Shown here in pieces: positions 51,953 through 64,000 of a stretch of DNA of 64,000 nt. The position numbers and the translations under genes were made by a program. Origin of the DNA: Kitasatospora fiedleri (GTDB lineage Bacteria > Actinomycetota > Actinomycetes > Streptomycetales > Streptomycetaceae). The notes below the pieces were generated by a model, which was not told the DNA's origin, made no database searches, and saw nothing but the letters and a program-made list of their open reading frames with translations. Numbering within the stretch: the stretch's first letter is position 1; each line of letters starts with the position of its first letter. Where the stretch lies: NCBI RefSeq assembly GCF_948472415.1, contig NZ_OX419519.1, positions 186,001 to 250,000 of the forward strand, in the 5' to 3' direction.

Positions 51953-52046
51953 CGAAACTCGGCGTCAACTGTTTCGTTCGAAGTTTCGGAGCGGTTGACA
52001 GGTCAACCTCCCTACGGAGCCAGCGGGAGCCCGGCGCACTGTTTCG
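51953..52046. promoter_or_regulatory. CGAAAC/GTTTCG boxes and a GGTTGAC dyad in the divergent promoter region
   Basis: CGAAAC (51953-51958) and GTTTCG (51971-51976) form an inverted repeat with a 12-base spacer; further GTTTCG boxes lie at 51983-51988 and 52041-52046. A perfect 16-bp dyad GGTTGAC-AG-GTCAACC lies at 51993-52008. They sit between the importer operon and the GH26 genes. CGAAA/TTTCG boxes are reported in promoters of Streptomyces xylanase genes. The LacI protein of this locus is the likely binder of one of the sites. Confidence 0.65.
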
Positions 52047-52162
52047 GATCGACCGGCCCTCAACTGCGGAGACGGGCGAATGTTTACGACACTGTTGACG
52101 CGATGATTCGGAGGTCACCACCATTCGAGTCCCCACCCGACGGAACGCCAAGGAGCACCTCC

Positions 52163-53776
52163 ATGCGCCCCCTCCGCAGAGCAGGACTCGCCGCGGCCGC
52201 GGTCCTCACCGCCGCGGCCGCCGTCCTCGCCTCACCGGCCGGACAGCAGCCCGCCCAGGCCGCCGTCAGCGCCCGCAACCTGCCCGCCGACGGGAAGATC
52301 CTGTCGATCATGGGCCAGGACAGCGACACGCTCGCCGCCTACAAGAGCGACGTCCTGGACAAGGCGTCGCTCAACGCCCCCAAGCCGGGCGGCGTCACGC
52401 TCTACACCAACCTCGTCCTCGGCGGCAGCCCCGAGCCGCTGGCCGGCATCGTCGGCCCCGCCGACTGGGGCGCGGGCCGGGTCGACTTCAACTCGACCCT
52501 CGCCCAGTACCCGGGCTCCGCCCTCGCCGTCGGCCTCTACCTCTCCGACGCCACCAGCGGCTGCAACAACCAGCCGCTGCGCGCCGTCATCGGGCGCAAC
52601 GACAGCGACGTGACCGCCGGCAGCCCCAACCTGATCAGCCAGTACCGGGCCAAGGTCGACCAGTTGGTCGGCTCGCTCAAGGGCTACAACCGGCCGGTCT
52701 ACCTGCGGATCGGCTACGAGTTCGACGGCCCGTGGAACTGCTACAGCGCCGACTTCTACAAGCAGGCGTTCGCGTACATCAAGGGCCGGATCGACGCCCT
52801 GGGCGCCAACAACGTCGCCACCGTCTGGCAGAGCGCCGCCTGGCCGCTCAACGCCAGCCCCGACCACCCCGAGTGGAACTACGTCGTCACCGACCCGCAC
52901 CACTACGACGCCTGGTACCCCGGCGACCAGTACGTCGACTGGGTGGCGCTCTCCTCGTTCTACAACTCCGGTTCACTGACCGCCCAGTGGGGCTGCAGCA
53001 GCTACGACACCGCGCCGGTCGCGCTGCAGGACCGCGTGCTGGACTTCGCCCGCGCGCACGGCAAGCCCGTGATGGTCGCCGAGTCCGCCCCACAGGGGTA
53101 CCAGACCGGCGCCCACACCCGGAGCTGCATCTTCCGGAAGAACAAGACCGCCGCCACCGGCCAGGACATCTGGAACCAGTGGTACGCCCCGTACTTCGCC
53201 TGGATCAACCAGAACCGGGACGTCATCCGGGCCGCCGCCTACATCAACACGAACTGGGACGCCCAGACCCTCTGGCAGTGCGCCGACGGCGCCCAGGCCG
53301 GCGGCACCGGCTGCGGCAACGGCTACTGGGCGACTCCCGGGTGCAGGCCGACCCGACCGTGCTCGCCAACTTCCTGGACCAGCTCCGCGGCGGCCAGTGG
53401 GTGAACGGCACCGGCTCCACCCGCCGCCCGGCTCGCCCTCCCCCACGCCCACGCCCTCCGCCCCGCCCTCCCCCACCGCGTCCCCGTCCCCGTCCCCCAG
53501 CGGCAGCCAGGCCCCCTACGCCCAGGGCCTCGCCACCGGCACCGCCCCGAAGCTCTGGTTCAAGCCGAACGGCTTCACCGCGACCTTCGTCACCGTGCAC
53601 TACACCGTCAACGGCGGCGCCCAGGCCAACTACTTCCTGACCTGGAACGCCGGGCCGGGCGCTGGGAGCAGCCGCTCACCGTCAAGTCCGGTGACCGGGT
53701 GACGTACTGGTTCGACTACCAGCGCTCCGACCAGACCTTCCAGGTCTCCACCCCCACCTGGACCGTCACCGCCTGA
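52163..53776 (+). CDS. secreted GH26-like glycanase with a CBM56-like domain (three frameshifts)
   Basis: ATG 52163 follows AAGGAG and starts a signal peptide (RRAGLAAAAVLTAAAAVLAS, cleavage near AQAA). The catalytic part contains RIGYEFDGPWNCYS, whose Glu fits the acid of GH26 enzymes, and PVMVAESAPQGYQTG, where Glu would be the nucleophile. Missing bases at 53328-53330, 53420-53422 and 53657-53659 interrupt the frame. Mended, the catalytic domain ends DPTVLANFLDQLRGGQWV, a Pro/Ser/Thr linker follows, and the last about 85 residues (KLWFKPNGFTATFVTVHYTV, then VTYWFDYQRSDQTF) look like a CBM56 beta-1,3-glucan-binding domain. It should cut a wall polysaccharide outside the cell. Confidence 0.75.
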
Positions 53777-53846
53777 CGCCCCCGCTCCCCCGCCGCGGCC
53801 CGGCCCACCCACCGGGCCGCGGCCCCACCCCCACCGGGAGACCTCC

Positions 53847-55060
53847 GTGCACCCGATCACGCACCGGCCCGCCCTGCCGCTCGTGCTGCTCGCCCTCCTC
53901 GCGGGCCTGCTGTTCGGCACCGCGCCCCGCGCCGCCGCCGCGACCGCCGCCGCCCCGCCCCAGCGCGTCCTGCTCGCCGGGCAGTCCACCCGGGCCGCCT
54001 GGGACGACCTGAGCAGTGTCACCGACGCCCCCGCCGGCGGCTCCGTCTACTACGAACTCGCCTCCGGCACCTGGGTCTCGCCCGCCCACCGCGACTACGC
54101 CGCCTTCCTGGCCGCCCAGGGCCGCACCGTCCAGATCGGCATCAGCTGGAAGGACAACCCGCCCGGCTACACCGGCGGCGACCGCGCGGCCCGTTCGCGC
54201 GCCGTCACGCAGGAGCTGGCCGACGGCCGGTACGCCGACCGCTTCGTGACGCTGATCGACTTCGTCAACCAGTACCCGCGGGCGACCTTCCTGCTGCGCC
54301 TCGACTACGAGGTGAGCAGCGCCTTCCACTGCACCGACGCCAGTTGCTCCTCGTACAAGGGCGCCTTCGCCCGCATCCGCTCGCTGATCGACGACGCCAG
54401 GCACCAGGGGAACGTCCAGTACGTCTACCACCCCGTCCGCGGCGAGTACGCGCAGCTCTACCCGGGGGACGCGGCCGTCGACCGGATCGGCGTCTCGGTC
54501 TTCGCGCACGAGCTGTGCCTGCCGGTCTACGACCACGGCTACCTGTACAACGGCACTCCGCCGGACAACTACGACACCGGGACGCTCCAGTGCCGCAACC
54601 CGTACATCGGACCGACGGCTGGGGCAACCCGGCGGCGGTCTGGAAGGACTGGGACTACGACGGCAACGTGCTCGGCATGATGAAGTTCGCCCGGGACCAC
54701 GGCAAGACGATGATCGTCTCCGAGGGCGGCATGATGAACTTCACCGCCGACAACGGCGCCACCGACGGCCTGGAGCAGGCCCGCGGCGCGCTGTGGGTGC
54801 AGCGGCTGTTCGGACTGCTCGACTACCGCGGGCCGATCCCCAACCAGCCGGGGACGTACGACCTGTCCCGGGTGATCACCGCCGTCACCTACATCGACCT
54901 GGACTTCCGCTACGGCTGGGACGCGGTGCCGGACGGCACGTTCGACTTCCCGCCGGACAGCACCTGGTTCGTGGACGGGCGGATCTCCCGCTACGGCGCC
55001 GCCCGCACCGCCTTCTGCCAGGGCCTGGCCGGCACCGGCTTCACCACCCGCTGCCGCTGA
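53847..55060 (+). CDS. second secreted GH26-like glycanase (one frameshift)
   Basis: GTG 53847 (behind GGGAG) gives a signal peptide ending near PRAAAATA. The rest resembles the catalytic part of its upstream neighbour but diverged: FLLRLDYEVSSAFHC holds the Glu in the place of RIGYEFDGPWN, and MIVSEGGMMNF holds a second Glu. A missing C at 54612-54613 breaks the frame before DGWGNPAAVWKDWDYDG; the end is GTGFTTRCR at TGA 55058. It lacks a binding module. It probably shares a substrate with the first enzyme. The gap between the two is 70 bases, so they form an operon. Confidence 0.7.
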
Positions 55061-55092
55061 CCCCGGCCCGGGGTGCGCGCCGCCCGCCCGTG

Positions 55093-55134
55093 GGAGTAGC
55101 CCGCCCGTGAGGGCTCCCGCGGGCGGGCTACTCC
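55093..55134. terminator. 15-bp-stem hairpin between convergent genes
   Basis: GGAGTAGCCCGCCCG (55093-55107) pairs perfectly with 55120-55134. The 12-base loop can form a smaller GGG/CCC stem. The right arm contains the stop codon of the GGDEF-EAL gene on the minus strand. It follows the GH26 gene stop by 32 bases. Confidence 0.75.
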
Positions 55135-58100
55135 TCGAAGGTCCGTTGGCTGCGCACCAGTTCCCGGGCCTGGACGGCGGTCATCGGGCGGCCGAACAGG
55201 TAGCCCTGGCCGAGCGGGCAGCCCATCGCGGCGAGCAGGTCGCGCTGGGCGGTGGTCTCGATCCCCTCGGCGATGACCGTCACGCCCAGGGTGTCGGCGA
55301 TCCGGGCGATGCCTTCGACGAGGGCGTGCTGCTGCGGGGAGGCGCCCAGCCCGTCGATGAAGGTCTTGTCGATCTTCAGCATGGAGATCGGGAACTCCCG
55401 CAGGTAGGAGAGCGAGGAGTAGCCGGTGCCGAAGTCGTCGATCGCGATGCCGACGCCGAGGGCGGTGAGCTCCTCCATGTCGGCGAGGACCCGGTTGTCG
55501 CGCCGCATCAGCACGGACTCGGTGAGTTCCAGGACCAGCGCCGTCGGTTCGATCCGCGAGGTGTCGAGCACCTCGCGAACGGTGTCGAGGAAGCCCGCGT
55601 CGCGGAACTGGCGGGCGGAGACGTTGACGTTCACCCGCAGCCGGGGCCGTCCGGGGCCGCCGCCCTCGTCCGCCCACTTGCCGACCTCGTGGGCGGCCTG
55701 TTCGAGGACCCAGGCGCCGAGCTGGACGATCTGGCCGCTCTCCTCGGCGACCGAGATGAAGTCGTCGGGCAGGATCATGCCGTGCCGGTCGTGCGGCCAG
55801 CGGATCAGCGCCTCGAACCCGGTCAGGACGCCCTCCTGGAGGGCGACGATCGGCTGGTAGTGCAGCCGGAACGCGGACTCGGTGAGCGCGTCGTCGAGGT
55901 TCTCGTAGAGCTCGTGCCGCCGCAGCAGCCGGGTCTGGAGCGCGGAGCGGTAGTGCCGGCGCTGCCGCCGTCCGGCGTCCTTGGCGGCGTACAGCGCGAG
56001 GTCGGCGTGGGCGAGCAGTTCGGTGGTGTCGGAGCTGTCCTCGGTGGTGGCCACCCCGATGCTGGCCGAGACCCGGGCGGCGCCGGCGCCGAGCACGAAC
56101 GGTTCGGCGAAGAGCGCGAGCAGGCCGTCGGCGACGGCGTCGACGTCGGCGGGGGTGCGGGCGTCCTCGACCAGGACGGCGAACTCGTCGCCGCCGAGCC
56201 GGGCCGCGGTGTCGGAGCTGCGCAGGGCGCCGGAGACGCGGCGGGCCACCGAGAGCAGCAGTTCGTCGCCGACGGCGTGACCCTGGGTGTCGTTGACGGC
56301 CTTGAAGTCGTCAAGGTCGATGAAGAGCACGCCGGTGACCAGGCCGCTGCGGGCGGTGCGCTCCAGGGCGTGCGCGGCGCGGTCCTGGAACAGGACGCGG
56401 TTGGCCAGGCCGGTCAGCGGGTCGTGGAAGGCCAGGTGGGTGAGTTCGCGCTCCATCTCGCGCTGCTCGGTGACGTCGCGCAGGGTGAGCACCAGTCCTT
56501 CGACGGTCGGGTCGGCGCGCAGGTCGTTGAACCGGACCTCGGCCTCGATCGGGGTGCGGTCGTGCCGCACCAGCCGCCAGTGCTCGCGGGGCTGGTCCTG
56601 GCCGTCGCCGGGGGCGAGCGGGCCGCGGGTGCGAATCCGCTCCAGGGTCCGCACGACGCCCCGGACGTCGCCGGGCGGGACCAGGTCGGTCAGCGGGGTG
56701 CCGTCCAGCCGGGCGTGGCCCAGCACCCGGGCCGCGGAGGTGGAGGCGTAGCGGACGGTGTCGTCGTCGTCGAGGATCAGGATGACGTCGCTGGCGCTCT
56801 GCACCAGGGTGCGGAAGTACAGCTCGCTGTTGCGGTGGTTGATCTCCTGGCTGAGCAGCACGCGTTCGACGGCGAGCGCGGCCTGGGCCGCGAGGATCTC
56901 CAGCGGGCCGCGCAGGTCGGCCAGTTCCTGTTCGGTGCCGGCCGCGACCAGCACGCCGAGCAGCGGGTCGCCGGAGGGCCGTTCGGCGAGGGTGAGCGGG
57001 CAGAGCAGCACGTGGGGCAGGCCGTGCGGGAGGGCCGCCGAGGTGCCGCGCAGGTCGTCGGCGGGCAGCAGCAGCGTGGTGTCCGGCGAGGCGAGGGCGA
57101 GCAGCGCGCCGACCTGTTCGGTGGGCGGGGCGGTCGGGGCGCCGGCCGGCCGGGAGTGCGGGGTCCGGGCGACGGCGAGCCGGACGGGGTGGCCGGGGCG
57201 GGCGGGCATCAGGGCCGAGGCGGCGCTCTCGACGCCGGTGGCGATCTCGTCGACGGTGACGGCGGCGGTCAGCCGCGAGCCGGCCTCGCGCAGGGTGCGT
57301 TCGCGCACCGCGGCCTGCCGGTAGGCGGCGACCACGACGGCGAGCCGGGCCAGCACCAGCAGGTAGAGGACGGCCGAGAAGGCGCCGATCACGCCGGTGT
57401 TGGCGGTGTTCCCGGCCACCCACTCGGCCAGCAGGATGGCGGGGGCGATGAGCGCCGCGGCGGTGAGCAGCAGCAGCCGTCCGGTGCCCAGGCCGGGTTG
57501 CTGGGTGGGCAGCGGGTGGGTGAGTTCGACCATCGACGGGTGGAGGGCGGCCGCGCCCCAGGCGGCGTAGAGGACGGCCCAGCCGAGGTCGACGGGGGTG
57601 CCGATGTGCCAGTTCCCGTGCAGTTGGATCAGTCCGTAGGCGGTGTCGGAGAGCAGGATGCCGACGGTGCCGACGGTGAGCAGTTGCAGCGAGCGGCTGG
57701 CGCCGCCGCTGGGGGTGAGCAGCCGCAGCAGCAGGGCGAGGACGACGATGTCGCCGAGCGGGTAGGCGATCGAGACGGCCTTGGAGAACCAGTCGAGGTC
57801 GGGGTTGCGGGTGTAGGGCAGGATCAGGTAGATCCAGCCGAGCAGCGCCAGGCTCATGGTGAGGATCAGGGCGTCGAGCAGCCCGGCCCAGTCCTGTCTG
57901 GACTTGCGGCGGCGGATGAAGAGCAGGGCGCCGGCCGCGTACAGCACGAACTCGGCGAGGTAGAAGACGTCCGCGACGGACGGGAACGGGTTGTGGAGGT
58001 GCAGGAACTGGGTCTGGACGACCTGGGTGACCTCGCCGGCGGTGAAGCTGACGTTGGCGAGGGCCAGCAGGTACCAGGGCGCGGCGTGCGCGGGCCGGTT

Positions 58101-58253
58101 GAGCCGGACGCCGGTGACGACGGCGGCGGCGCCGCTCATGCCGATCCCGGTCCACCAGATGATCCGCTGGTCGGGATTGACGTAGTAGATGCCGGTCAGC
58201 AGTGCCATCCACGCCAGGAAGCAGACCATCAGGAGCCGGCGACGGGCTGTCAT
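55128..58253 (-). CDS. membrane PAS-GGDEF-EAL cyclic-di-GMP enzyme
   Basis: ATG 58253 lies seven bases after AGGAGG. The 1,041-residue protein has about eight to nine N-terminal hydrophobic segments (to about residue 300), a GAF-like region, a PAS domain (SASDVILILDDDDTVRYAST) and a GGDEF domain with intact GGDEF. The inhibitory RxxD site (RSSD) lies five residues before it. The EAL domain has FEALIRWPHDRHG, IDDFGTGYSSL and VIAEGIET. Both domains therefore look active, so the protein can make and break c-di-GMP. The layout resembles Streptomyces membrane proteins that control development. It is divergent from the biosynthetic gene; the 129-base gap has an A+T-rich patch (CATATAGTCGAATAG). Confidence 0.92.
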   Translation of the reverse strand: MTARRRLLMVCFLAWMALLTGIYYVNPDQRIIWWTGIGMSGAAAVVTGVRLNRPAHAAPWYLLALANVSFTAGEVTQVVQTQFLHLHNPFPSVADVFYLAEFVLYAAGALLFIRRRKSRQDWAGLLDALILTMSLALLGWIYLILPYTRNPDLDWFSKAVSIAYPLGDIVVLALLLRLLTPSGGASRSLQLLTVGTVGILLSDTAYGLIQLHGNWHIGTPVDLGWAVLYAAWGAAALHPSMVELTHPLPTQQPGLGTGRLLLLTAAALIAPAILLAEWVAGNTANTGVIGAFSAVLYLLVLARLAVVVAAYRQAAVRERTLREAGSRLTAAVTVDEIATGVESAASALMPARPGHPVRLAVARTPHSRPAGAPTAPPTEQVGALLALASPDTTLLLPADDLRGTSAALPHGLPHVLLCPLTLAERPSGDPLLGVLVAAGTEQELADLRGPLEILAAQAALAVERVLLSQEINHRNSELYFRTLVQSASDVILILDDDDTVRYASTSAARVLGHARLDGTPLTDLVPPGDVRGVVRTLERIRTRGPLAPGDGQDQPREHWRLVRHDRTPIEAEVRFNDLRADPTVEGLVLTLRDVTEQREMERELTHLAFHDPLTGLANRVLFQDRAAHALERTARSGLVTGVLFIDLDDFKAVNDTQGHAVGDELLLSVARRVSGALRSSDTAARLGGDEFAVLVEDARTPADVDAVADGLLALFAEPFVLGAGAARVSASIGVATTEDSSDTTELLAHADLALYAAKDAGRRQRRHYRSALQTRLLRRHELYENLDDALTESAFRLHYQPIVALQEGVLTGFEALIRWPHDRHGMILPDDFISVAEESGQIVQLGAWVLEQAAHEVGKWADEGGGPGRPRLRVNVNVSARQFRDAGFLDTVREVLDTSRIEPTALVLELTESVLMRRDNRVLADMEELTALGVGIAIDDFGTGYSSLSYLREFPISMLKIDKTFIDGLGASPQQHALVEGIARIADTLGVTVIAEGIETTAQRDLLAAMGCPLGQGYLFGRPMTAVQARELVRSQRTFEE

Positions 58254-58382
58254 GGCGCTACCTCCTGCCGGTAGGGTCCCGGATCGACGGCTTGCGAACG
58301 CCTTCGTCCACCATGGGCGCATATAGTCGAATAGCACAATTTCGTATCTGTTTCTGTTGCCCGCGCGAGCGAGGTCAGTCCT

Positions 58383-61300
58383 GTGGTGGAACGAGCAGGC
58401 GGTACGGCGGACGGTCCTCCCCCGCCGGATGGGACCAGCTGGTCGGTGATCCGCGACGCCTCCGGGCGGCACGCTATCCGACCGGCCGCGGCGGCCCGGA
58501 CGGACGGGTGGGAGCCGGTCTTCGGGCCGGCCGGACGCCAGGAGTGCCGGGCGTTCGTCGACCGGGGCTGGCGGCCGCCCGAGCTGGGCCTGGCGGCCCG
58601 GTCCGGGACCGGCCCGCGGCCCGGGCCGGGCGGGCCGGTCCCGGTGTACGAGGCGTTCCGGGCCCGCGCGGCGCGGGACCCGGAGGCGCTCGCCGTGCTG
58701 GGCGAGGGCGGCACGCTGTCCTACCGGGAGCTGGCGCTGCGCGCCGCCCGGCTGGTCGGGGCGCTGCGGGCGGCCGGGGTCCGGCCGGGCGACGCCGTGC
58801 CGGTCCGGCTGCCCCGCGACGTGGACCTGGTGGTCGCCTGGCTGGCCGTGCTCGGCGCGGGCGGCGGCCTGCTGCCGGTGGAGCCGTCCTGGCCCGCCGA
58901 GCGGCAGGACCGGGTGGTGGCGCGGTGCGGGGCGGCCGTGGCCGTGGCGGCGGGCGCCCCGGGCTGGCCGGGGGTGCGGGTGCTCGGGCCGGACGCGGCG
59001 GGTCCCGTCGAGGAGCCGCCCCCGCTCGGGCCGGGCGACCTGGCGTACCTGATCCACACCTCCGGCTCCAGCGGCGTCCCCAAGTGCGTGGCCGTGGCGC
59101 ACGGGCCGCTGGCGTTCACCCTGGACCGGGTCGGCCGGGCGTACGGGCTGGCGCCGGGCGACCGGGTGCTGCAGTTGGGCGCGCTGGGTTTCGACACCGC
59201 GCTGGAGCAGGTCCTCGCGCCGCTGACCCGGGGCGCCGCGGTGGTGCTCGGCGGGGTCGACGCGTGGGCACCGACCGAGCTGCTGGAGCGGATCGGGGAG
59301 CTGCGCCTGACGGTGGCCGACCTCACCCCCGCGTACTGGCACCACCTGGTGGCGCAGCTGGAGCCGGGCGAGCTGGGCCGGACGGGGCTGCGGCTGGTCC
59401 TGGTCGGCGGGGACGTGGTGCACGTGGACGACTGCCGGGCCTTCCTGGCCCGGCTGCCGGGCGTGCGGCTGCTCAACGCCTACGGGGTGAGCGAGGCGGC
59501 GATCACCTCCACCCTCTGCGAGGTGACGGCCGAGGTGCTCGGGGACGCCGCCGCGACGGCGCCGGCGCCGATCGGCCGGCCACTGCCAGGGGTGCGGGTG
59601 CACCTGCTGGACGGGCGGCTCGAACCCGTGGCGCCGGGCGAGAAGGGCGAGATCCACCTGGCCGGTCCGGGCCTGGCGCTGGGCTACTGGCGGGACGCCG
59701 CCGCGACCGCCGAGGCGTTCGTGCCGGACCCGTCCGCCGGGGAGCCGGGGGCGCTGATGTACCGGACGGGCGACACCGGGCGGCTGCGGCCGGACGGTGT
59801 CCTGGAGATCCTCGGGCGGGTCGACGAGCAGGTGAAGGTCGGTGGCTTCCGGGTCGACCCGGGCGAGGTGGAGGCGGTGCTGGCCGCCCACCCGGAGGTC
59901 CGGCTGGCGAAGGTGCTGGCCGACCGGACCGCCCCGACGGCAGCGCCGCCCTCACCGCGTACTACACGACGGCGGACCCGGAGACGGCCCGCGCGCCGGA
60001 GCGGGTCGCGCCGATCCGCGCCCACCTGGCGCACTACCTGCCCGCGTTCATGGTCCCGGCCGCGTTCGTGCCGCTGGCGGCGATGCCGCTCACCGCGGCC
60101 GGGAAGATCGACCGCCGGGCGCTGCCGGCCCCGCCCGCGTCGGCGGTGCACGCCGCCGCGCCGCCACCGGGGCCGGGCGACGGCGTTCCCGCGGACGCGA
60201 CCGAGCTGACCATCGGCCGGCTCTGGGCCGAACTGCTCGGCGTGGACCACGTCGAGCCGCTGGACGACTTCTTCGCCCTGGGCGGGACGTCGCTGCTGGC
60301 CATGGAGATGCTGGCCCGGGTCCGGCTGCTGGCCGACCTGGACGTCACCCTGGTGCGCGGGCTGACCCGGTCCCTGCTCGGCGAGCCGACGTTGCGGGCG
60401 TTCGCCGCCGCGGTCCGGGCCGCCCGCACGGGTGGTCCGGCCGGCGCCGGGCCGGGGGCGGGCGGCATCGACTGGAACGCGGAGGCCGAGGTGCGCTGCC
60501 CGGTGCGCGGCGGCGGGCCCGCGCCGGACCGGGTCCGGCCCGCCGAGATCCTGCTCACCGGCGCGACCGGCTTCTGCGGCGCCCACCTGCTGGAGACGCT
60601 GCTCGCCACCACCGGGGCGCGAATCCACTGCCTGGTCCGGGCGCCGGACCGGGCGGCGGCGGCCGAGCGCCTGTACGAGGCCCAGCGGCGCTTCCTGGGG
60701 CGGCGGTTGACGGACCCGCGGATCGTCCCGCTGACCGGGGACCTCACCGAGCCCCTACTGGGCCTGCCGCAGCACCGCTTCGACTGGCTGGCCGAGCACC
60801 TCGACGCGATCCACCACCTGGGCGCCCGGGTCAACTTCCTCTACCCGTACCACCAGCTGCGGCGCGCCAACGTGGACGGCACCCGGGAGGTCGTCCGGCT
60901 GGCCGGGCACCGCCGGGGCGTGCCCGTCCACTACGTCTCGACGCTGGCCGTGCTGGCCGGTTTCGGGGCGGCCGGCGTCGACCGGGTGGACGAGCGCACC
61001 CCGCTCGCCCACCCCGAGCACCTGGGGGTGGGCTACGTGGAGTCCAAGTGGGTGGCCGAGCAGCTGCTGCACCGGGCGGCGGCGCAGGGACTGCCGGTCA
61101 CCGTGATCCGCACCAACGACGTCACCGGGGACCTGGCCGGCGGGGCGATGAACCCGGCGACCGAACTGTGGGCGCTGGTGCTGTACTTCGCCGAGAGCGG
61201 GCGCTACCCGCAGGTGCGGCTGCCGCTGGACTTCGTGCCCGCCGACCGGTTCGCCCGGGCCGCCGCCCACATCGCCGCGCACGCCCCGGCCCGCGGCGAC

Positions 61301-61669
61301 GTCTACCACCTCGCCTCGCCGCGGCCGGCCTCGCTGCCCGAGCTGGCGGCCCGGATGGCGGCCGCCGGCCGGCCGCTCACCGCCGTCCCCTACCGGGAGT
61401 GGGTGCGCGAACTGGTGGCCTTCGCGTCCGCGCACCCGTCCCACCCGATCGCGCCGTACGCGCCGCTGTTCGTCGACCGGGCGCCCGGCACCGGGCTGTC
61501 GATCAGCGAGCTGTACTTCCGGCCGGTCTTCCCGCGCTTCGACCGCTCCCGGGCGGAGGCCGCCCTGGCCGGCAGCGGCATCGTGCTGCCGGACGTCGAC
61601 GCCGGGCTGCTGGACCGCTGCCTGGCACAGTTGGACGGCACCGGGCTGCTGCCGGGCCGGGCGGGCTGA
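58383..61669 (+). CDS. MbtH-adenylation-carrier-thioester-reductase NRPS-like protein (one frameshift)
   Basis: GTG 58383 gives an N-terminal MbtH-like domain (about 17-67: SVIRDASGRHAI, WEPVFGPAGRQEC, GWRPPEL). The adenylation domain follows with IHTSGSSGVPKC (A3), NAYGVSEAAI (A5), YRTGDTGRL (A7) and PLTAAGKIDRRAL with the A10 Lys. A missing C at 59932-59935 lies between A8 and A9. The carrier domain has FALGGTSLL with the phosphopantetheine Ser. The thioester reductase has LLTGATGFCGAHLLE and YVESKWVAEQLL. Manual pocket reading gives D-T-E-D-V-V-A-I-T plus Lys, two acidic residues that favour a basic side chain. No condensation domain is present. Predicted product: an amino aldehyde or its cyclised form. 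Confidence 0.85.
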
Positions 61670-61676
61670 GGCCGCC

Positions 61677-62542
61677 GTGAGCACGATCGACGAGCCGGAC
61701 GCCTTCGACGGACCCGGCCCCGCCGCCGAAGCGGACCCTTTCGACGGACCGAGCCACTTCGACGGGCCGGACGCCCTCGACGGGCCGGACCCCTTCGACG
61801 GGCTCGACCTCGCCCGCGCGCCCGGTGACGCCCCGGTGGCGTTCGGCGCGGAGCTGACCGGCCCGGTGCTGCTGGCCGCCTACCGGCGCGGCCTGTTCCC
61901 GATGCCGGCCGACGACATGGCGGCCGCGTTCCACGAGGTCCGCCACGGCTCGGAGGTGGCGGCCGGGCGGATCGCGCTGCTGCCCGGGCCAGCCGGGCAG
62001 GACCCGTACGCGCTGGCCTGGTGGTCCCCCGATCCGCGCCCGGTCCTGGCGCCGGGGGAGGTGCACCTGGCGACCCGGCTGCGCCGGAGCCTGCGGACCG
62101 GGGCGGACGGGTCCAGCACGGCGGACCGTGCCTTCGCCGAGGTGGTGGCGGCCTGCGCGGAGGGGCGGCGCCCGGTCTGGCTGACGCCGGCGCTGCGCGC
62201 GGCGCTGGCCCGGCTGCACCGGGCGGGCGTCGCGCACAGCGCCGAGGTCTGGGACGGGCCGGAGCTGGTGGGCGGCGCGTTCGGGGTCGTGGTCGGCGGG
62301 TGCTGAGCCTGGACTCGATGTTCGGGCGCCGGCCGGGAGCGGACCGCACCGCCGTCGCCGACCTGGCCGCCCGGTTCGCCGCCGCCGGGGGGCGGCTGCT
62401 GGACGTGCAGTGGGACAGCCCGCACGTCCGGGCCCTGGGCGCCCGGCCGACGGCCCGCGGGGACTACCTGCGGGCGCTGGCCGAGCCGGCCGCCCCCGCC
62501 GCGCCGGAGACCGGGCGGCTGCCGCTGTCCCGGCTGGGCTGA
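61677..62542 (+). CDS. leucyl/phenylalanyl-tRNA-protein transferase homologue (one frameshift)
   Basis: GTG 61677, seven bases after the NRPS-like stop, starts a protein with an unusual N-terminal FDGP repeat (AFDGP, PFDGP, HFDGP, ALDGP, PFDGL). The Aat domain follows: LLAAYRRGLFPMPADDM, LAWWSPDPRPVLAPGEVHL, LRRSLRTG, DRAFAEVVAACAEGRRPVWL, HRAGVAHSAEVWDGPELVGG. A missing G at about 62297-62299 interrupts it before VLSLDSMFGRRPGADRTAVA; the end is GRLPLSRLG. Standard Aat adds Leu or Phe from tRNA to protein N-termini. Beside an NRPS-like reductase it probably acylates the carrier-bound or free amino acid from aminoacyl-tRNA. Confidence 0.8.
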
Positions 62543-62607: not shown

Positions 62608-63330
62608 TCAGCCGGCCTGGAGGCGGAGTCCGGCGAGGGTGAGGTCGAGTTCGGCGAGGAACTGCTCGCGGTCGTCGTGCCCGTCGAACTCGTCCACGAT
62701 GTGGTGCAGGAACGGGTAGCGCTCCGGGTCCAGGGCGCGCCAGTTGTCGGCGAAGCGGCCGAGGAACTCCTCGCGGCCCACGGCGCCCTCGACGACCTCC
62801 TCGGGCGGTTCCTCCTGGCCCAGGTCGGCGGCGTTGCTGACCACGACGCCGATGACCGCCGACAGGGCGTGGAAGCGCTGCTTCGGGGTGAGGTCGAGGC
62901 GCAGCAGCTGCCGGCCGAGCAGTTCGTACAGGCGCAGCGAGTTGCCCTCGCTGCCGATGTTGCGCAGGAAGCGGTCGCCGAGCCAGGGCCGATCGGCCAC
63001 CGCGTCGAACAGCGTGACGGCCATGGCGCGCAGGTCGGCGATCGGGTCGGCCGTGTCGGGCCGCTGCTCGACGGTGGTCAGGACGCCGCCGAGGACGTGG
63101 TCGATGGCGCGGTCGAGCAGGTCGTCCTTGCCGGAGACGTACCAGTAGATGCTGCCGACGCCGGTGCCCAGCCGGCCTGCCAGGGCGCGCAGGGTCAGGG
63201 CCTGTTCGCCGTCCTCGTCCAGCAGGGCGACGGCGGCGGCGAGGACGGCCTCCATGGAGTGCGAGGCACGTCGACGCCCTCGGGTCGGGCGTTCGGCGGG
63301 GTGCGGTCGCGTCGGTGCCATGGTTCCCAT
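62608..63330 (-). CDS. TetR-family regulator of the adjacent MFS exporter
   Basis: The 240-residue protein has a TetR HTH (SMEAVLAAAVALLDEDGEQA, then GTGVGSIYWYVSGKDDLLD) and a typical ligand domain (FDAVADRPWLGDRFLRNIGS). ATG 63330 or ATG 63321 could be the start; the second matches the family better. It is divergent from an MFS gene with a 37-bp operator between. TetR proteins with this C-terminus control drug exporters. It probably controls export of the product of the adjacent NRPS-like pair, but a role in unrelated drug resistance is equally possible. Confidence 0.88.
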   Translation of the reverse strand: MGTMAPTRPHPAERPTRGRRRASHSMEAVLAAAVALLDEDGEQALTLRALAGRLGTGVGSIYWYVSGKDDLLDRAIDHVLGGVLTTVEQRPDTADPIADLRAMAVTLFDAVADRPWLGDRFLRNIGSEGNSLRLYELLGRQLLRLDLTPKQRFHALSAVIGVVVSNAADLGQEEPPEEVVEGAVGREEFLGRFADNWRALDPERYPFLHHIVDEFDGHDDREQFLAELDLTLAGLRLQAG

Positions 63331-63349
63331 CCAATCACATTTGCGGGAT

Positions 63350-63386
63350 TATCGAACTCGGTTCTATAGTAGAACCACGTTCGATA
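63350..63386. promoter_or_regulatory. 37-bp TetR operator overlapping divergent promoters
   Basis: Outer arms TATCGAAC/GTTCGATA and inner arms GGTTCTA/TAGAACC form a perfect composite dyad with a TAG centre. TATAGT (63365-63370) inside it fits a -10, with TTGCGG (63341-63346) as -35 for the rightward MFS gene. A repressor here would block both genes. Confidence 0.85.
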
Positions 63387-63476
63387 GTGCGTCGCGGACC
63401 GGTACGGCCGCACCCCGCGCCCGCCCGGCGCGACGCCCGGACCGCCCCCGCCCGACACCACGAAAGGAGGCCCGTC

Positions 63477-64000
63477 ATGACTGCCACCGCTGCCGCACCC
63501 GCGGCTTCCCGCACCTATCCGTCGCTGCGCGCGGCCTGGATTCCGCTGGCCGCGCTCTGCCTGGCCTTCTTCGTCGAGATGGTCGACAACACCCTGCTCT
63601 CGATCGCACTGCCGACCATCGGCCGGGACCTGGGCGGCGGCACCACCGCCCTCCAGTGGGTCACCGGCGCGTACTCGCTGACCTTCGGCGGCCTGCTGCT
63701 GACCGCCGGATCGATGGCCGACCGGCTCGGGCGGCGGCGGGTGCTGCTGGTCGGCCTCGCCGCGTTCGGCCTGCTCAGCCTGGGCGTCGCCGCCGTGACC
63801 GGCACGGGGCAGCTGATCGCCCTGCGGGCCGGGCTGGGCGTCGCCGCCGCGGCGATGGCGCCGATCACCAACTCGCTGGTGTTCCGGCTCTTCGACGACG
63901 CGGCGCTGCGGATGCGCGCGATGACCGTGATGATCGTCGTCGGCATGTCCGGCTTCGTCCTCGGCCCGCTCCTCGGCGGCACCGCGCTGGCCCACGTCAA
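63477..64000 (+). CDS. MFS (DHA2-like) exporter, truncated by the right edge
   Basis: ATG 63477 follows AAAGGAGG, a strong ribosome site. The visible 174 residues include the DHA2 helix-1 motif VEMVDNTLLSIALPT, the loop motif GSMADRLGRRRVLLVG and further helices to SGFVLGPLLGGTALAHV. The gene runs past 64000 without a stop. It is under the TetR operator directly upstream. Its N-terminal MTATAAAPAASRTY is short and disordered. Confidence 0.88.
   Translation, partial: MTATAAAPAASRTYPSLRAAWIPLAALCLAFFVEMVDNTLLSIALPTIGRDLGGGTTALQWVTGAYSLTFGGLLLTAGSMADRLGRRRVLLVGLAAFGLLSLGVAAVTGTGQLIALRAGLGVAAAAMAPITNSLVFRLFDDAALRMRAMTVMIVVGMSGFVLGPLLGGTALAHV

Follow-up and report, generated by a model that had tools for sequence, protein, structure and literature searches.

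Introduction

The closest described relative of the system reported here is livipeptin of Streptomyces lividans 66 (Sli0883-0885). It pairs a nonribosomal peptide synthetase (NRPS) made of adenylation (A), peptidyl carrier protein (PCP) and thioester reductase (R) domains, without a condensation domain (C-minus), with a homologue of the leucyl/phenylalanyl-tRNA-protein transferase Aat (L/F-transferase) (PMC10548850). In this work we analyzed a 64,000-nucleotide stretch of DNA from Kitasatospora fiedleri, a member of a genus of soil bacteria (contig NZ_OX419519.1, positions 186,001 to 250,000; hereafter the window). At 58383-62542 it carries a two-gene locus of the same general build, placed next to a divergent gene for a membrane GGDEF-EAL protein. 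On balance, we think it fairly likely that the locus encodes a C-minus NRPS plus L/F-transferase system that makes a dipeptide aldehyde with the help of charged tRNA, and that this variant is coupled to the signal molecule cyclic di-GMP (c-di-GMP), which GGDEF-EAL enzymes make or degrade.

The livipeptin genes of S. lividans were shown to support the RNase-sensitive formation of a protease inhibitor; the N-acyltransferase was needed for activity, and two-gene mixtures without it were inactive (PMC10548850). The livipeptin cluster also includes an O-methyltransferase and a butyryl-CoA dehydrogenase. Kitasatospora and Streptacidiphilus are represented in the clade of 33 presented in the livipeptin paper by entries that neighbour a C-minus NRPS; these very likely include loci of the type described below. 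The main text of that paper mentions neither MbtH nor c-di-GMP nor GGDEF. Within the literature searched, livipeptin is the one system of this kind found to have been studied, and no description of a GGDEF-EAL link to a C-minus NRPS with Aat was found at the level of titles and abstracts, subscription papers lying mostly outside this scope.

Uncapped dipeptide aldehydes released by NRPS reductase domains have been described to cyclise to pyrazinones (PMC4210894, PMC10979478), a compound class with signalling roles in several bacteria (PMC10979478). Two Streptomyces pyrazinones, arglecin and argvalin (PMC12144821, PMC11212599), match the expected cyclisation products of uncapped Leu- and Val-argininal. 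One of these papers assumes that they derive from protease inhibitor aldehydes (PMC11212599), and the accessible passages of both link no gene cluster to them. On the side of c-di-GMP, CdgF of Streptomyces venezuelae has a 10TM-PAS-PAC-GGDEF-EAL architecture (TM, transmembrane helix); it is predicted to be bifunctional, and its signal is unknown (PMC6205966).

Results

The window genes were delimited as follows.

58383..59957, + strand: MbtH-like domain fused to the adenylation domain (Pfam); first part of the A-PCP-R gene, ending just past a frameshift at ~59933
59906..61669, + strand: carrier protein and thioester reductase domains (Pfam); second part of the A-PCP-R gene, in another frame
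61677..62303, + strand: leucyl/phenylalanyl-tRNA transferase homologue (Leu_Phe_trans), first part, with an FDGP-repeat leader at ~61677-61796
62303..62542, + strand: leucyl/phenylalanyl-tRNA transferase homologue (Leu_Phe_trans), second part, past a one-base loss at ~62298
55128..58253, - strand: GGDEF-EAL protein of 1041 aa, divergent, with ~10 membrane helices, a GAF-like region, PAS, GGDEF and EAL (Pfam and predicted model)
58322..58329, + strand: conserved TATAGTCG element in the divergent intergenic region, candidate promoter/operator (k-mer conservation)

Pfam matched MbtH (E 7.2e-08) and AMP-binding (E 2.4e-66) in 58383-59957, PP-binding (E 6.5e-08) and NAD_binding_4 (E 2.9e-57) in 59906-61666, and Leu_Phe_trans in both parts of the second gene (61677-62303, E 1.6e-29; 62303-62539, E 4.9e-07). 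No condensation domain was matched in the A-PCP-R protein by Pfam at E values up to 1. The A-PCP-R stop codon ends at 61669 and the Aat GTG start lies at 61677, seven bases on. Thus the gene order proposed from the bare sequence in an earlier note, a condensation-free A-PCP-R protein followed closely by an Aat homologue, was borne out. The intact A-PCP-R protein of the same-species genome G011 scored above the cut-off of TIGR01746. The match to PDB 4gr5 spans the MbtH region together with the A domain (query 21-514); this entry, titled only as a non-ribosomal peptide synthetase, is presumably the SlgN1 MbtH-adenylation fusion, and unlike the window locus it shows no carrier-reductase part and no Aat partner.

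To place the pair, 70 Kitasatospora genomes, 394 genomes drawn from the family and 14 named control genomes were used. PF03588 was matched in 51/70, 68/394 and 4/14 of them, respectively. The 57 matches within the genus correspond to 55 places, since the window genome (G000) and G005 were matched in two pieces each. Stretches were taken around all 55 genus places (L033-L087) and around 19 places in 17 other family genomes (L099-L117), with genes called by a codon-usage gene caller. The scan of named genomes contributed the best 80 of 580 confirmed among 594 stretches, with L123-L134 holding the pair or another NRPS. Altogether, A-PCP-R and Aat genes were found side by side in 73 rows (L059 added by hand), and the remaining Aat loci had other gene settings or were cut by a contig end (L075). 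Within the genus the two genes adjoin in 49/70 genomes, so that a chance association is excluded and the earlier note's worry that the pair might not be conserved did not materialize. In six loci the NRPS and Aat are fused; NRPS-Aat fusions are described in the livipeptin paper as well (PMC10548850).

The comparison with other A-PCP-R and Aat pairs, which the earlier note had called for, divided the 73 rows into two types. The window type, defined by the pair plus a GGDEF-EAL neighbour, comprises 68 rows, or 64 distinct loci: 49 from Kitasatospora, eight from group g3, four from group g10 and three from further named Streptomyces (L123, L124, L125 and L127 duplicate genus genomes among the 68 rows). 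The livipeptin type comprises five rows, namely L116, Streptomyces sp. A3M-1-3, Micromonospora sp. C31, Actinophytocola algeriensis and Nocardiopsis endophytica. MbtH is fused to the A domain in 68/68 window-type rows, whereas neither an MbtH domain nor a GGDEF-EAL neighbour was found in the five livipeptin-type rows; both features had been named as setting the locus apart, and both do. The MbtH profile was trained on 61 rows; its matches in the remaining seven window-type rows, and to the stand-alone MbtH of L110, L111, L115 and L134, are independent of the training.

The accessory genes separate the two types in the opposite sense. A homologue of the gene in the acyltransferase position occurs in 5/5 livipeptin-type rows, and the O-methyltransferase and acyl-CoA dehydrogenase in 4/5. 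Homologues of the three L116 accessory genes were found in 0/68 window-type rows when the fetched stretches, not whole genomes, were searched, with stretches L033, L051, L052, L061, L067 and L114 ending within ~1 kb after Aat. Going by gene order and by Pfam matches to a methyltransferase and an acyl-CoA dehydrogenase, these L116 genes are probably the counterparts of Sli0885-0887; for the one in the acyltransferase (Sli0885) position, 257 aa long, neither Pfam nor NCBIfam gave a match. The FDGP-repeat leader of Aat, put forward in the earlier note as a distinguishing partner, turned out to be a local oddity present in 2/73 rows, both from the species of the window, and was rejected as a functional partner.

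Among the records of a plasmid collection no S. lividans SLP3 reference was found: the A-PCP-R relatives were all below 60% identity, and Aat matches were confined to 16 records from enterobacteria, Aeromonas and Legionella.

The Aat homologue retains the fold of the E. coli enzyme (match to E. coli Aat structures at E 7e-34) and its catalytic residues: the Asp and Gln aligned to D186 and Q188 are conserved in 68/68 window-type and 5/5 livipeptin-type rows. It differs from housekeeping Aat (E. coli, 2z3k) in its tree placement, its profile score and its position beside or fused to an NRPS. In G000 there are two Aat matches, both pieces of this single gene, and 326/394 sampled family genomes had no Aat match at all. 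The intact G011 protein scored 122.3 bits against the TIGR00667 equivalog, below the cut-off of 143.55. A tree of 123 Aat proteins separated the 80 rows from NRPS settings, which grouped together with SH-aLRT 97, from the 43 others. Of the latter, 42 were taken as housekeeping/unknown; the remaining one, L108, stems from the NRPS side but is short and has a very long branch. This tree excluded the window copy, whose frame is broken, and 30 of the 80 named loci (L177-L202 and four repeats). A 43-row tree gave 100/99 for the NRPS-setting group and 100/99 for the livipeptin type. The livipeptin-type clade was placed within window-type diversity, and the AU test did not reject window-type Aat as one clade (p 0.497). 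An ordinary housekeeping Aat, the grouping that the earlier note had named as fatal to its proposal, was hence rejected by the tree, the TIGR00667 cut-off and the linkage to the NRPS.

In L135 (69-5580), from a Frankiales metagenome-assembled genome (MAG), the Aat was weakly placed next to the NRPS-setting group and a GGDEF-EAL gene (36%) lies ~3 kb off; no A-PCP-R match was found within this 14.6 kb stretch.

Nine pocket positions of the A domain, mapped by PheA numbering, read DTED[IVL]GA[IV]T in 68/68 window-type and DTEDIGAIT in 5/5 livipeptin-type rows. A basic substrate fits this pocket because two of its positions are acidic, and the livipeptin-clade A domain has been predicted to take Arg (PMC10548850), so the window A domain is likewise predicted to load arginine. 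All 73 rows, the 68 of the window type included, retain the carrier Ser as well as the reductase Tyr and Lys. The two types differ at the position of E. coli Aat M158, in the likely aminoacyl pocket, which is M in 68/68 window-type rows and Q in 4/5 livipeptin-type rows. These likenesses refer to the livipeptin-type loci compared, not to Sli0883-0885 themselves.

The GGDEF-EAL protein matched EAL (1.3e-71), GGDEF (4.5e-43) and PAS in Pfam, and the motifs GGDEF and EAL[VLI]RW were present in 69 and 68 matched pieces of window-type rows. By architecture and by both catalytic motifs it resembles CdgF (PMC6205966), from which it differs in being tied to a peptide synthase. Its N-terminal 473 residues, modelled from 8 sequences (mean pLDDT 75.9), form ten long helices followed by a GAF-like fold. 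In a fold search, no PDB entry resembled this membrane half at E 0.001 or better; the nearest were a KdpD GAF domain (E 0.025) and then a receptor (0.2).

In the window the GGDEF-EAL gene lies 130 bases from the NRPS gene (58253-58383). The two genes are divergently oriented in 49/49 Kitasatospora pair loci and in L112; in the 14 other distinct loci the GGDEF-EAL gene precedes the NRPS gene on the same strand. Among called neighbours in the 55 genus stretches, the GGDEF-EAL gene was present in 49, the next family in 15. In 39/49 divergent intergenic regions CGACTATA/TATAGTCG was present, against 9 to 11 for the best 8-mer in 10 shuffles, although relatedness among the 49 regions inflates this count; the element is a possible shared promoter or operator.

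Across the genus, the GGDEF-EAL gene (E 1e-150 or better) occurs in 51/70 genomes and the pair in 50/70, counting as positive G026, in which Aat stands at a contig end and GGDEF-EAL on another contig. The two lists differ in G046 only, whose 3649-base contig ends at the GGDEF-EAL gene. G054 carries an Aat of another sort and lacks a GGDEF-EAL gene of this type. All genus copies of at least 59% identity adjoin the pair, except those of G046 and G026. On an rpoB-rpoC DNA tree of the 70 genomes the pair requires nine state changes (eight forced by well-supported branches; G046 is among the nine) and the GGDEF-EAL gene eight. Of eight independent contrasts, seven showed the GGDEF-EAL gene changing in step with the pair, none showed an opposite change and one showed no change (sign test p 0.016), the last being the truncated contig. 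Pairwise distances of GGDEF-EAL and PCP-R in 47 loci correlated with r 0.95, and with r 0.88 after removal of the rpoBC distance (0/999 permutations as high). The c-di-GMP enzyme is therefore co-inherited with the pair in the genus.

Four Kitasatospora genomes hold a second GGDEF-EAL copy (56-57%) near an operon of a response regulator, a HEAT-repeat protein, a family-2 glycosyltransferase and a histidine kinase; the glycosyltransferase is found in 4/70 genomes. The same operon directly follows the window-type module in L109, L113, L128 and L130 and stands beside it in L103 and L107, and it is absent from most other g3 loci and from L112. Sites of this operon near the GGDEF-EAL subfamily (L109 2279-7698, L113, L128, L130, L119-L122) were seen with the pair present or not. 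By association, this hints at exopolysaccharide as an output.

Both window genes contain one frame change each, near 59933 in the A-PCP-R gene and near 62298 in the Aat gene. In G011, MbtH-A and PCP-R share one frame, as do both Aat parts, with 96-99% identity to the window pieces. Relative to the G011 locus (L033), the window has single-base losses at 53328, 53420, 53652, 54609, 59933, 62298, 63417 and 63420, all but 59933 at runs of G or C; single-base additions are intergenic or offset by a compensating loss. The first four losses fall in two neighbouring secreted-protein genes. Because G011 has both genes intact and the same ~11 kb holds further homopolymer losses besides those in the pair, the frameshifts are likely assembly errors. 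Elsewhere in the window genome G000 (8.07 Mb, three contigs), an ABC-ATPase-like and a LacI-like gene, named by look, are each called in two pieces.

Of the flanking genes, those at 62608-64000 encode a TetR-family regulator and, divergently oriented, a DHA2-type MFS transporter that is cut by the window end; a sub-threshold partial match to the Tet(43) model was obtained here. The two secreted-protein genes lie at 51995-55062; a fragment of the second matched GH26 below the cut-off (13.5 vs 20.2 bits).

Other Aat settings were seen among the fetched loci, their genes partly named by look. In L085 (G068) an Aat homologue stands beside an A-PCP protein with dehydroquinate synthase- and aminotransferase-like genes, possibly another tRNA-dependent pathway. 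In L110, L111, L115 and L134 (Streptomycetaceae, Catellatospora) its neighbour is an NRPS, the MbtH gene is a separate one, and the first three loci also have carbamoyltransferase-like and thioesterase-like genes. A distant Aat homologue lies between genes of ~320 aa and ~930-960 aa in L080, L082, L084, L102 and L117, and in L080, L082 and L084 this trio is followed by a small secreted-looking peptide of ~60 aa.

Discussion

In the pathway that we favour, the A domain, aided by the fused MbtH, would charge the carrier protein with a basic amino acid, predicted to be arginine. Next, Leu or Phe would be moved by the Aat homologue from charged tRNA onto the free amine of the carrier thioester. 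Aat naturally adds Leu or Phe to N-terminal Arg or Lys, which makes Arg bound to the carrier a natural acceptor: the thioester would mimic the N-terminal Arg of the ancestral protein substrates. Reductive release by the R domain would yield the dipeptide aldehyde, a Leu/Phe-argininal. Its amine, left uncapped for want of a dedicated N-acyltransferase, would close on the aldehyde, and oxidation would lead to a pyrazinone, of the arglecin type in the case of Leu-Arg. The neighbouring membrane GGDEF-EAL protein would either respond to the product or set when it is made. The earlier note's proposal that a carrier-bound amino acid is extended from a charged tRNA and released reductively gains support from this domain logic and from the pocket shared with the livipeptin-type loci. 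Its comparison with livipeptin holds for the domain logic, the pocket, the non-housekeeping Aat and the conserved pair. It does not extend to the product: livipeptin activity requires the N-acyltransferase, and none was seen next to the pair in the 68 window-type rows, so that livipeptin itself is an improbable product here.

Several points weigh against this interpretation. Leu or Phe as the transferred amino acid is deduced from aligned residues, and the pocket departs from that of E. coli Aat at several of them: the E156 position is D in all 73 rows, F153 is mostly L and F173 is L. The product of the window-type module is a prediction, as are its amino acids. R domains can also reduce to alcohols, and an acyltransferase encoded elsewhere in the genome could cap the product. 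Livipeptin itself is structurally unsolved (PMC10548850). The inactivity of NRPS and Aat without acyltransferase as a protease inhibitor fits an uncapped, cyclised product and is no demonstration of one. As to the c-di-GMP side, block transfer alone can yield the joint gain and loss of adjacent genes; the second GGDEF-EAL copies near the glycosyltransferase operon stand apart; and relatives of the N-terminal half (42-49%) occur in 13/200 family genomes outside the 68 Aat-positive ones. Around ten such relatives, from nine of those genomes plus an additional copy in G175 (a genome with the pair at another place), the fetched stretches gave no PCP-R or Aat match. The wider GGDEF-EAL family as an exclusive marker of the pair was accordingly rejected.

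The same relatives without the pair lend some weight to the view of the GGDEF-EAL gene as a bystander, the three genes being one horizontally moved block in which dipeptide and c-di-GMP are functionally untied, and physical linkage by itself would make the genes come and go together and their distances correlate. We consider this rather improbable, since the gene accompanies 49 of the 55 stretches against 15 for the next neighbour family, the linkage survives the change of orientation between genera and the different surroundings, and the genus copies of at least 59% identity stand beside the pair with the two exceptions given. Somewhat less credible still is a plain livipeptin-type protease inhibitor, that is, an N-acyl-Leu/Phe-argininal with its acyltransferase elsewhere and the c-di-GMP enzyme as a mere local regulator. 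The shared A pocket and Aat catalytic residues and the Kitasatospora and Streptacidiphilus entries of the published clade agree with it; the inactivity of two-gene mixtures without acyltransferase (PMC10548850) and the occurrence of the acyltransferase homologue near 5/5 livipeptin-type and 0/68 window-type rows of the fetched stretches do not.

Two further explanations appear far less probable. That the pair are pseudogenes in the source strain, carrying two real frameshifts, would agree with both genes being out of frame as sequenced and is very unlikely: GC-run single-base losses also hit both neighbouring secreted-protein genes, two genes beyond the locus appear split too, the pair is intact in the same species, and key residues on both sides of each shift match those of relatives. 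Even harder to sustain is an ordinary N-degron transferase acting on proteins next to an unrelated A-PCP-R gene. The retained catalytic residues and the structure match allow for it, and against it speak the separate tree group, the score below TIGR00667, the placement beside the NRPS in 49/55 genus stretches with fusion to it in six loci, and the many family genomes that have no Aat match.

Beyond the dipeptide aldehyde synthase that we favour, a bolder possibility, which we hold only tentatively and think doubtful, is a self-contained signalling cassette. The charged-tRNA supply would be turned into a c-di-GMP signal through a dipeptide-derived compound (uncapped argininal or pyrazinone), with the 10-helix GGDEF-EAL protein as its receptor. 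If this is true, livipeptin would be a rarer offshoot that has lost the receptor and gained the acyl cap.

The window-type variant is common, being present in 50/70 Kitasatospora genomes, and smaller than the livipeptin system, and the linked c-di-GMP enzyme points to a function. The many intact window-type loci, such as that of Kitasatospora paracochleata (L125), in which no frame break was seen, offer sources in which the product may be found and make the module a candidate source of arglecin-type pyrazinones. They may also provide a testable input for membrane GGDEF-EAL proteins that lack known signals (PMC6205966).

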